Notes under the pieces: generated by a model
What the model was told of the DNA's origin: nothing
The model's input: only the letters and a program-made list of their open reading frames with translations
Databases searched by the model: none
Shown: in pieces, positions 3,828 through 37,228 of the stretch
How the letters are laid out: each line of letters opens with the position of its first letter
How positions within the stretch are numbered: the first letter of the stretch is position 1
Program-made: the position numbers and the translations under genes
Origin: Alphaproteobacteria bacterium
GTDB lineage: Bacteria; Pseudomonadota; Alphaproteobacteria; UBA2966
DNA length: 37,228 nt
Assembly (NCBI GenBank): GCA_018650465.1
Contig: JABIFY010000026.1
Span: forward strand, 1 to 37,228
Direction: 5' to 3'

Positions 3828-3853
3828 AGCGGTTTGGTAAAAGGGATAAAGTG

Positions 3854-4252
3854 ATGTCTGACAAAGTCTCCTTCGAGCTTGTCTCACCAGAAAAACTTCT
3901 GTTGTCCGAGGACTGCGAAATGGTCGTGGTCCCCGGCACGGAAGGTGATTTTGGTGTGCTCGCCGGACACGCGCCGATGATTTCATCGATCCGCCCCGGC
4001 GTGATCGAAGTGCACGAAGGCAGCAACGTAACCCACCGTTTGTTCGTCTCAGGCGGCTTGGCCGAGGTTACCAACGAACGCCTGACCGTGCTGGCAGAAG
4101 AAGCCTTGCCCGTCGAAGATTTTGATGCCGCCGATCTCGATCAGCGCATCAAGGATGCTGGTGAAGACCTGGAAGACGCCAAAACAGACGAAGGCCGCCA
4201 TAAAGCAGAAGCCACTATCGCCCTGCTGACCGAAATGCGTGCCGCTATCTAA
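3854..4252 (+). CDS. atpC: F1F0 ATP synthase subunit epsilon
   Basis: This is the small regulatory subunit of the F1 rotor, which contacts gamma and can inhibit ATP hydrolysis. It has 132 residues. The N-terminal beta-sandwich begins KVSFELVSPEKLL and contains the conserved GDFGVLAGHAPMIS. The C-terminal helical part is short and acidic. A GTG at 3851 lies directly before the ATG at 3854. I prefer the ATG because the AAGGG at 3841-3845 is then 8 bases away. It is the last gene of the operon, followed by an intrinsic terminator about 40 bases downstream. Confidence 0.95.
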   Translation: MSDKVSFELVSPEKLLLSEDCEMVVVPGTEGDFGVLAGHAPMISSIRPGVIEVHEGSNVTHRLFVSGGLAEVTNERLTVLAEEALPVEDFDAADLDQRIKDAGEDLEDAKTDEGRHKAEATIALLTEMRAAI

Positions 4253-4291
4253 GATTTCTATCTGATATTAACTGAACAAATTCAGTACTTT

Positions 4292-4318
4292 AAACCCGGC
4301 CTTGGTGCCGGGTTTTTT
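4292..4318 (+). terminator. Rho-independent terminator of the atp operon
   Basis: A GC-rich stem (4292-4300 pairing with 4307-4315, core AACCCGGC/GCCGGGTT) with a 6-base loop runs into six T residues at 4313-4318. It lies 40 bases after the atpC stop and faces the same way. Confidence 0.93.
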
Positions 4319-4360
4319 GTGTCCGCATGCTGGACAATGGGCTTTCCTGTTTGTGCGATG

Positions 4361-4525
4361 CCCAGGAAAAATGGTGCCTGGCACAAGCGCCTTCGCGAAG
4401 CTGCCTAGCTCCACTTTTCCGGCCGGAATTAACATGCCTTAACCCGCAAAACGACCGACTTCACAAACGTAAACCCTAAAAATTGGAGCCAGGCGCGAGA
4501 CGAGCCAGGCACAATTTTTCCTGGG
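4361..4525. repeat. Nested inverted-repeat element (REP/MITE-like)
   Basis: The outer arms 4361-4384 and 4502-4525 are inverted copies matching at 22 of 24 positions, around the core TGCCTGGCAC. Each half also folds on itself. In the left half the arm pairs imperfectly with about 4411-4428, around the 10-base palindrome CTTCGCGAAG. In the right half AAAAATTG pairs with CAATTTTT and the 9-mer GAGCCAGGC occurs twice. It holds no reading frame worth keeping. It occupies most of the 462-base gap between atpC and the next gene. It resembles bacterial REP/BIME or MITE elements in shape. Family identity is not established. Confidence 0.7.
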
Positions 4526-4618
4526 GCGAGCACACAATCAAACCGACAGAACAGAGTTGTTTCAGCAGACGCAGATTCAGAAAGCTGCAAAAAATATACG
4601 CGAAAAACGAAAAAATAC

Positions 4619-4646
4619 TTGCAATTATGTATAAAACATATATATC
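4619..4646 (+). promoter_or_regulatory. Possible sigma-70 promoter for the 4715 gene
   Basis: TTGCAA at 4619-4624 and TATATC at 4641-4646 are separated by 16 bases, within a very AT-rich tract. Just downstream, AGGTGAAA (4657-4664) pairs perfectly with TTTCACCT (4670-4677), forming a hairpin near the predicted 5' end of the transcript. This is based on pattern only. Confidence 0.35.
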
Positions 4647-4714
4647 TTGAGTGGTAAGGTGAAAGTATTTTTCACCTCGGAAAAAAACAACCCTGGTCCC
4701 TGCATAGCATTAAC

Positions 4715-5677
4715 ATGGAACTCATATCGCAAAAAACACCGCTTCTGCCCCATGACTGGAGCATCGGGCGGGCTATCGGCTGGTTCACCAAACTCGGCAT
4801 TTTCGTGCTCGTCCCTGGCCTGCACCAGATCGCCTGCAAGCGGCGCATCCTCGGCGGGCTGTTGATGGTGATGTATTTCGTCGCAGAATTTGCCGTCGAA
4901 AACCGTCCATTAAACCTGGATCCAATTGTTCTATTTGGCCCTCCGGACCTCAGCAACTATGATTTTAGCAATTTTAACATCAAGGATTTCGACAAAGAAA
5001 ACGAGAAATTTGAATTGATTCTCAATTACTACGTTATGGATCGAATTTTGGCCTGGGTACCGCTCTATTTCAGTTGGTTTCTATTGGTGATTGATGTGCG
5101 GAAAATTGAACGCCGCAGAATGACGTTGAACTGGTTTTTGGTATTTGCATGCCTGACAGGTGCCTGGTTCTGGCCCGAGAGACATCGCTTCTTTTCAAAT
5201 TTCTTTGTCGTTCAAACAAACATTGGTTGTCCGGAAATCTGCAAAAATGACATTGTTGCTTGGCATTACCTCGAGCCCGACCATGAAACTGCAATTTCAG
5301 GTCAATTGGTTGCCATTGGCTCTTTCGTTAACAGACCTTTTATGGCGAGGGTTTTGCCGGGAACTCCACAACAACTCTGCGACGGAGAATTACCTGAGGC
5401 CAGTATACGTCCTGGCGAATTGAATGATTGCAAATACAGTTGGATGGGCGGGGGTAAATACCGAATAGATACCGGCCCTGACTCGATTCATCAATCCGGC
5501 AAAAGGCAGCATGTCTATTGGACGCATCCATTATTTTCTATGCATACAAGTTTCAGCAAAATTGGGAACACCCACAAATATTTCATCCTGAATGACAGCG
5601 TGACGGATGCGGTCGGGCATACCTTGTTCGAAATCTACAACTGGACCTTTTTTGATCCATTCAACTTTATTGAATGA
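4715..5677 (+). CDS. Membrane protein with weak S26 signal-peptidase-like C-terminal region
   Basis: I do not recognise this 320-residue protein with confidence. The N-terminal part has hydrophobic segments at about residues 25-36, 46-60, 107-127 and 138-152. The phrase VLVPGLHQIACKRRILGGLL resembles the PGLGQ-type small membrane domain found in many bacterial proteins. The soluble C-terminal part (about 160-320) follows the order of blocks seen in S26 signal peptidases: KNDIVAW, then GQLVAIGSF, then ARVLPGTPQQL (compare KRVxGLPGD), then KYFILNDSVTDAVG (compare YFVLGDNRDNS). The catalytic Lys of the third block is replaced (Ala211 before Arg) and no clear SxM serine box is seen, so it may be a non-catalytic relative. 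No good Shine-Dalgarno precedes the ATG. A stop/ATG overlap at 5674 points to a frame I reject. It probably pairs with the next gene. Confidence 0.6.
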   Translation: MELISQKTPLLPHDWSIGRAIGWFTKLGIFVLVPGLHQIACKRRILGGLLMVMYFVAEFAVENRPLNLDPIVLFGPPDLSNYDFSNFNIKDFDKENEKFELILNYYVMDRILAWVPLYFSWFLLVIDVRKIERRRMTLNWFLVFACLTGAWFWPERHRFFSNFFVVQTNIGCPEICKNDIVAWHYLEPDHETAISGQLVAIGSFVNRPFMARVLPGTPQQLCDGELPEASIRPGELNDCKYSWMGGGKYRIDTGPDSIHQSGKRQHVYWTHPLFSMHTSFSKIGNTHKYFILNDSVTDAVGHTLFEIYNWTFFDPFNFIE

Positions 5678-36543: not shown

Positions 36544-36605
36544 TGTTCAGAGGCTCAAAAGGCGTCGGATAATATAATCCCGGCGCACAAATCAAGAGGG
36601 TTACC

Positions 36606-37022
36606 ATGCCGGAGATCATTGCAGATCACGATCAGTCGCAAGCAGATGGAGATGCCGTTACGGCTTGGTTGATGCAGCACTCTGACGAGGCCGAACAGCC
36701 CTGGAACCCGATCCCCTATGCCTTCACATTGATGGACGACGGTCGTATCAGAGGTGGCTTGATAGGCAATATCAATCGCAGCTGGGCCTATGTGGCGGTC
36801 CTGGCCGTGGATGAAAAACTGCGTGGCCTTGGTTGGGGCGAAAAACTCATGGCCGAGGCAGAGGCCTGGGCGATTGAAAATAAATGCAGCGGCATCTGGC
36901 TCGACACCTTCAGCTTCCAGGCCCCGAAATTTTACAAAAAACTGGGCTTCACCGAATTCGGCAGCCTGCCGAACTTCCCCGACGACCAAACCCGCCATTA
37001 TTTCAAGAAAGAACTGATTTGA
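36606..37022 (+). CDS. GNAT-family N-acetyltransferase
   Basis: This cytoplasmic protein of 138 residues is predicted to transfer an acetyl group from acetyl-CoA to an unknown amine. The GNAT core is clear: GGLIGNINRSWAYVAVLAV leads into motif A with the acetyl-CoA loop RGLGWG (DEKLRGLGWGEKLM), followed by AWAIENKCSGIWLDTFSFQA and the motif-B-like KFYKKLGFTEFG. AAGAGGG lies about 5 bases before the ATG. It is divergent from pstS, so its promoter shares that gap and PhoB could affect it. An 8-bp hairpin (37027-37034 with 37048-37055) just after the stop lacks a U run. Confidence 0.88.
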   Translation: MPEIIADHDQSQADGDAVTAWLMQHSDEAEQPWNPIPYAFTLMDDGRIRGGLIGNINRSWAYVAVLAVDEKLRGLGWGEKLMAEAEAWAIENKCSGIWLDTFSFQAPKFYKKLGFTEFGSLPNFPDDQTRHYFKKELI

Positions 37023-37110
37023 CGCCGCGACGGCCTTGCTCTTGGCAGCCGTCGCACAAAGATGTATTAAGACCCCGGTTCTGGCTTGAGAAGCACCGGA
37101 TCAGACCTGC

Positions 37111-37158
37111 GGAGAGATGACAGAGTGGTCGAATGTGGCGGTCTCGAAAACCGTTGCC
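37111..37158 (+). tRNA. tRNA-Ser(CGA), 5' half only; interrupted
   Basis: The bases from 37111 match a serine tRNA: acceptor strand GGAGAGA, a D-arm with GTGGTCGAA, and an anticodon stem-loop with stem GCGGT (37138-37142), loop CTCGAAA holding anticodon CGA (37145-37147), and stem ACCGT (37150-37154). After about 37156 the match ends. No variable arm, T-loop (GGTTCGAAT) or complementary TCTCTCC is found before the window ends 70 bases later. The gene is therefore interrupted or truncated. Its missing 3' half could lie beyond the window. Confidence 0.82.
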
Positions 37159-37228
37159 AGAAGTTATCCTCACTGACTACACACATATTAAACCACTAAT
37201 AATAAATAATAAAACATTGTATATATAA
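37157..37228. other. AT-rich segment following the broken tRNA
   Basis: The last 72 bases change abruptly to AT-rich DNA, especially 37190-37228, which is almost entirely A and T with few G or C. No gene starts here. The change at the tRNA break suggests the edge of inserted DNA. Confidence 0.55.

Follow-up and report, generated by a model that had tools for sequence, protein, structure and literature searches.

A tRNA-Ser(CGA) 5' half at the end of an alphaproteobacterial contig, probably left by an element that replaces the 5' part of its target gene

Introduction

The window, as the whole analysed stretch of 37,228 nucleotides is called here, ends in the 5' half of a tRNA-Ser(CGA) gene that stops resembling a tRNA directly after the anticodon stem and gives way to AT-rich DNA, which raises the question of what divided the gene. 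The window is one entire contig (G000:C58) of a draft alphaproteobacterial genome of 4.8 Mb in 163 contigs, and the break lies 74 bp from the contig end at position 37228, so that the DNA beyond these 74 bp is unseen. Fragments of tRNA genes produced by integration are described as pervasive in prokaryotes (PMC9897764). Islands that replace the 5' side of their target are a minority among the elements responsible, and through them the host tRNA comes under the promoter of the element. The Islander collection holds 3919 islands, of which 159 leave a 5' tDNA fragment and 3760 a 3' fragment, with 2083 using the anticodon site (PMC4383910). With its stem, 7-bp loop, and stem, the anticodon arm is built like the core sites of tyrosine recombinases described in a review (PMC8371274).

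A tRNA-Ser(CGA) gene broken after the anticodon stem

The leftover half occupies positions 37111..37154 on the forward strand, as do all features of the window described here. It runs from the acceptor 5' strand (GGAGAGA, 37111-37117) through a D-stem of full complementarity (ACA at 37120-37122 and TGT at 37134-37136) to the end of the anticodon stem (GCGGT at 37138-37142, ACCGT at 37150-37154), which encloses the loop CTCGAAA with the anticodon CGA (37143-37149). These parts were read from the sequence, and the identity of the half rests in addition on matches to the tRNA-Ser(CGA) genes of relatives and on an identity with the congener G001. The ACA/TGT D-stem is also found in one intact tRNA-Ser(CGA), that of a Holosporaceae MAG, and is thus of a working type. 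Upstream of the half lies the native spacer of the tRNA, the presumed promoter region (37023..37110), preceded by a GNAT acetyltransferase gene (36606..37022; PF00583, E 2e-14), a chromosomal flank that marks the locus in the congener. The DNA downstream (37155..37228), ended by the contig end, probably represents the first bases of an inserted element, the G+C content falling from 0.57 (37080-37153) to 0.26 (37154-37227).

When positions 36600-37160 were used as a query, 43 of 61 genomes matched. Among the 51 matches listed, 45 lay in the tRNA half, with 80-94% identity over 39-55 bp and a best E of 5.6e-15, while two covered the full locus (the window's genome, G000, and G001) and four lay elsewhere. 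The tRNA-half matches stop at 37153-37157, yet the query itself stopped at 37160; the break position is better tested by a reverse search, for which an intact tRNA-Ser(CGA) together with its flanking DNA was the query: the match to the window stops at 37156, although 362 bases of the query still follow. Two further bases beyond 37154 (TG) still agree with intact tRNA-Ser(CGA) genes. ARAGORN called no tRNA gene at 37111-37228, and the Rfam tRNA model gave a sub-threshold alignment of 21.6 bits (E 0.034), mostly to the 5' half, with nothing at gathering score. That alignment hinted at a minimal tRNA without a T-arm, a candidate that was rejected on account of two non-standard pairs among its seven acceptor pairs and because nothing similar was seen by eye in G001. 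The break at 37154 in tRNA-Ser(CGA) is real, and an earlier sequence-only reading of this DNA had both the coordinates and the anticodon right when it placed the break immediately after the anticodon stem.

The same half in the congener

The sequence-only reading had called for a comparison with relatives, among them G001, the sole congener in the set of genomes compared. Its contig C83 carries the same locus in an 86% match to the window that includes the acetyltransferase gene, with the same half and the break inside a contig of 38 kb. Between the two genomes, the tRNA half is identical over 43 bp, whereas the 88-bp spacer just upstream is 71% identical and the adjacent GNAT gene 87%, a contrast that speaks against a chance resemblance to a tRNA; the chance of 43 unchanged sites is about 4e-7 at a per-site identity of 71% and about 0.003 at 87%. 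Measured against its neighbours, the half has therefore probably been selectively maintained during most of the divergence of the two species. Either both lineages had it in a functional tRNA until a short while ago, in which case the insertions would be two distinct events, or it has been retained as an attachment site. After the half, both genomes have nTGnCAGA in common. The similarity between the window tail and the end of the G001 element is not significant, its score being reached by 82 of 500 shuffles, and the same holds for the tail and the end of the element in G005, another genome of the family (331 of 500 shuffles).

The gene of a tyrosine integrase, P0001 (PF00589, E 1.4e-11), starts 144 bp past the break in G001 and is read in the direction of the tRNA. 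It is followed by an excisionase-like HTH protein and then by a weakly primase-like protein, for which PriCT_2 scores slightly below the cut-off and a primase PHROG matches at E 1e-7. Next comes a protein of 562 aa with a caspase (Peptidase_C14) domain (G001:C83, L057:2115-3803). No second core was found in G001 between the integrase side and the contig end. An intact tRNA-Ser(CGA) is nonetheless present in this genome, on a small contig that begins 12 bp upstream of the tRNA and shows no visible link to the element; its D-stem (CCG/CGG) is unlike that of the leftover half, a difference that could fit a replaced 5' half.

Broken halves elsewhere in the family

Two genomes from another genus of the same family, G003 and G005, carry a tRNA-Ser(CGA) half with its break at this very position. 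Their upstream flanks show no similarity to each other above the reversed control and their halves differ at one base within the last 30 before the loop, while after the break 700 of 706 bases are identical (99%). A shared element thus stands at two unrelated loci, at the same point of the tRNA in each, which is what site-specific integration gives. In both, the integrase gene P0002 begins 81 bp past the break; its Pfam call was made on the G005 copy, the G003 contig stopping within the gene after 204 open codons. Neither P0002 nor the G003/G005 junction was found in IMG/VR. The far ends of the elements are unassembled in G001, G003, and G005.

A different state is met in G004, where a decayed half is preceded by a promoter that resembles the ones upstream of the unbroken G002 and G006 genes (0 of 200 shuffles each) and an intact tRNA-Ser(CGA) follows 1.34 kb downstream. 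The upstream sequence of this intact gene is a different one and resembles that of an intact tRNA-Ser(CGA) in the more distant alphaproteobacterium G104 (CTAAGTGAYTGGAAT; 0 of 200 shuffles), the match comprising 19 columns in a comparison of upstream regions in which seven of 66 pairs passed. Since two of the seven passing pairs look like chance, namely the G002 gene with the G000 half (2 of 200) and the G104 half with the G000 half (1 of 200), the short match between G004 and G104 amounts to moderate evidence. From these sequences, we take G004 to hold what is left of an old element of this kind after the loss of most of it. Seven genomes of the family are listed (G000-G006): four have a sharply broken half (G000, G001, G003, G005), one has the decayed half with an intact gene (G004), and two have an unbroken gene (G002 and G006, the latter cut by the end of its contig near the 3' end).

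A complete island in a more distant alphaproteobacterium

The class as a whole was covered with two patterns in 385 genomes. The junction pattern GGTCTCGAAAACCGNTGNCAGA, with one mismatch, was found in G000 and G001 only. The pattern GTCTCGAAAACCGVV, which represents the anticodon stem, allows no T at the next two positions and thereby misses G000 and G001, was found at 42 places in 39 genomes, all of which were read by eye; 33 proved to be non-tRNA sequence, eight were whole tRNA genes, and one was a broken tRNA-Ser(CGA) half in G104.

The G104 half lies at C49:23447 on a contig of 23.8 kb, which also carries an intact tRNA-Ser(CGA) about 21.8 kb downstream of the half, in the expected order and orientation. 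The two share an exact direct repeat of 49 bp that ends at the break, and an integrase gene (PF00589, E 1.4e-18) ends 71 bp ahead of the intact tRNA. G104 shows in full the layout predicted by the sequence-only reading: a leftover 5' half, an element, and a replacement 5' half joined to a 3' half. Its integrase gene is situated at the far end of the island, whereas that of G001 is beside the leftover half. A second intact tRNA-Ser(CGA) exists elsewhere in the G104 genome.

Integrases at the break

The integrases associated with these halves are of different kinds. P0001 and P0002 show no significant BLASTP similarity (E 0.23), even if the broad integrase family phrog_1 covers the two of them; the G104 integrase shares 24% identity with P0001 and has no similarity to P0002. 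Within the 385 class genomes, P0001 is matched at E 1e-30 or better in G001 and in four other genomes, at 30-33% identity. Two of these four have an intact tRNA just upstream, one has no tRNA in sight, and the fourth has a tRNA on the opposite strand which, judged by eye, is without its 5' end; such neighbours are not informative about the crossover. The best-ranked phage relatives of P0001 in INPHARED are the integrase of Mannheimia phage PHL101 and its kin, distant relatives with 28.7% identity over 92%. P0001 may be P2/HP1-like. A search against plasmids returned only matches below 60% identity, and of two pattern matches in IMG/VR, none was confirmed.

Search for the presumed element in the window's genome

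Two further sequences that the sequence-only reading had proposed to look for, a second copy of the bases around 37138-37156 and a complete tRNA-Ser(CGA), did not turn up: the G000 assembly yielded neither a second copy of the core GGTCTCGAAAACC nor an intact tRNA-Ser(CGA). It likewise yielded no relative of P0001 and no tRNA-Ser(CGA) 3' half, a pattern for the latter with at most one mismatch finding three matches in the tRNA-Ser genes GGA, GCT, and TGA. The same assembly also has no tRNA-Gln, tRNA-Tyr, or tRNA-Ile(GAT), and several tRNAs lie less than 100 bases from contig ends; tRNA loci are thus poorly assembled in this draft and the absence of tRNA-Ser(CGA) is no proof of loss. Twelve integrases occur in the genome, three of which were read near contig ends (C81, C37, C46), and none of these three shares a 13-base word with the window tail. 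A 27-base piece of the tail has no exact match in IMG/VR. In that database, 22 contigs carry a tRNA-Ser(CGA) 5' half; 21 of them have an ARAGORN CGA gene and are consequently not broken halves, and the remaining contig, whose 5' side is cut by the contig end, contains the 3' half as well and was rejected too.

Origin of the broken half

The half is very probably what an element left on the chromosome as one att end when it was integrated into tRNA-Ser(CGA) by a tyrosine-recombinase crossover in the anticodon loop. The support comes from relatives and would apply equally to the window's genome, in which 74 bp are visible past the break. The fragment at 37111-37154 starts at the 5' end of the tRNA and stops inside the gene, as a 5' tDNA fragment does, and broken halves occur at the same place in five genomes (G000, G001, G003, G005, G104), in three of which (G001, G003, G005) an integrase gene adjoins. 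All five halves are the same through ACCG (37153) and then diverge, so that similarity stops at the 3' side of the stem, consistent with a crossover in the anticodon arm (site A) and with the stem-loop at 37138..37154 as the probable attachment core. A tyrosine integrase is present in the elements of G001, G005, and G104 and as an open part in G003, while the corresponding position in the window is beyond the contig end. The proposal in the sequence-only reading of a tyrosine-recombinase element in the anticodon loop is supported by the integrases beyond the halves.

In the mechanism envisaged, the 7-bp loop CTCGAAA would serve as the crossover and the arms of the stem as the recombinase sites. 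After a crossover in the loop, one junction would keep the chromosomal 5' half together with its native promoter, and at the opposite junction a 5' half borne by the element would be joined to the displaced chromosomal 3' half. If the window's element likewise brought its own promoter and 5' half, the tRNA would have been restored under a new promoter. This replacement, which had also been suggested earlier, finds its support in the G104 island, where the intact tRNA follows downstream in the same orientation within a range of 2-200 kb; the element of the window's own genome was not found, and there the step may be supposed to have been the same. The right end of the window thus read probably marks the start of an unassembled island.

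Other origins of the broken half have to be weighed against this integration. The nearness of the break to the contig end, in a genome of 163 contigs, is what a chimeric join beside the tRNA with no insertion in the cell would produce, but the same break follows an identical half well inside the 38-kb contig of the congener, and G003, G005, and G104 are broken at the same place, with integrases beyond it in G001, G003, and G005, which leaves an assembly artefact very unlikely. Introns occur near tRNA anticodons, and a group I or other intron interrupting the gene just past the anticodon stem would be in keeping with a tRNA 3' half that is not seen. The sequence-only reading had wanted a group I intron checked with a covariance model; the Rfam models found no intron family and no group I intron core at gathering score in the window (74 bp past the break) or in 1.8-3 kb at the four equivalent places in G001, G003, G005, and G104, and three of these (G001, G003, G005) have integrase genes there instead, so an intron can hardly be entertained.

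A classic element of the 3'-replacing type, with a later deletion of the 3' half, would belong to the majority class (3760 of 3919 islands, PMC4383910), and a leftover 3' half of tRNA-Ser(TGA) does exist in G001. Here, however, the broken tRNA is at the junction of the element with the chromosomal 5' flank (G000, G001, G003, G005), and in five genomes a deletion would need to have stopped at almost one and the same base, beside four different neighbouring sequences, a coincidence that makes this course of events highly improbable. An element could also have broken the tRNA without rebuilding it, leaving tRNA-Ser(UGA) to read the TCG codons: the searches of G000, G003, and G005 yielded no intact tRNA-Ser(CGA), tRNA-Ser(TGA) is present in G000, and in Sinorhizobium meliloti two of 88 site-specific elements are reported to disrupt a tRNA gene centrally (PMC11476347). 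The absence means little in an assembly that also lacks three other tRNAs, and G001 and G104 retain an intact tRNA-Ser(CGA); loss without rebuilding is, on balance, improbable.

Relation to known integrative elements

Integration with replacement of the 5' half would make the locus a new case within a known, uncommon type of tRNA island, ordinary though tidy. The layout of the Islander islands that leave a 5' fragment, with this fragment upstream, an intact tRNA downstream, and a tyrosine integrase, is fully seen in G104, whereas the window shows the leftover fragment alone. The archaeal element pTN3 of Thermococcus nautili uses the 5' half of tRNA-Leu as its att site and parts the rebuilt gene from its promoter (PMC5495485, PMC8371274), a situation seldom met in bacteria according to the review. 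Attachment at a tRNA 5' half and a rebuilt tRNA away from the original promoter are common to both cases. The integrase gene of pTN3, however, is disrupted on integration, while in G001, G005, and G104 the integrase frame is unbroken and situated on one side. Closer in taxonomy are the phage-related sequences of S. meliloti, also alphaproteobacterial, in which nine of the 88 site-specific elements are attached at the 5' end of a tRNA with the gene preserved, two more disrupting it (PMC11476347).

Elements with clearly different integrases (P0001, P0002, and that of G104) thus target a single tRNA gene at one shared point. It might be ventured that tRNA-Ser(CGA) is a recurrent landing pad in the family, whose elements take over promoter and 5' half or even remove the gene permanently, expression passing repeatedly from host to element control, a generalisation that is speculative and, as things stand, rather doubtful. 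The group could serve to ask how such elements keep the host tRNA expressed.

Other tRNA genes in the genomes compared

Several other tRNA loci in these genomes show possible signs of integration. The leftover 3' half of tRNA-Ser(TGA) in G001 (C9, L127) starts from the anticodon arm and has an intact counterpart on C124; with this remnant, the congener has a case of the classic 3'-replacing mode. In G003 (C230, L125), non-tRNA DNA is joined to the upstream end of a 3' tRNA half whose anticodon loop reads TCT by eye, and ARAGORN calls no gene there. In the same genome, tRNA-Ser(GGA) and tRNA-Ser(GCT), near the ends of contigs C7 and C9 (L113, L119), share one 3' flank a short distance from the two contig ends, an arrangement that related elements at the 3' end of each gene would give. 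No leftover half was seen in G000:C145:1-5000, where an intact tRNA-Ser(TGA) is immediately preceded by the gene of a tyrosine integrase, both read in one direction (about 3846-4720; L182, L188). The CTAAGTCATTGATAT stretch ahead of this tRNA resembles the upstream sequences of G104 and G004 by eye and is not significant in the shuffle filter; C145 may hold a further element of the 5'-side type within the genome of the window itself.
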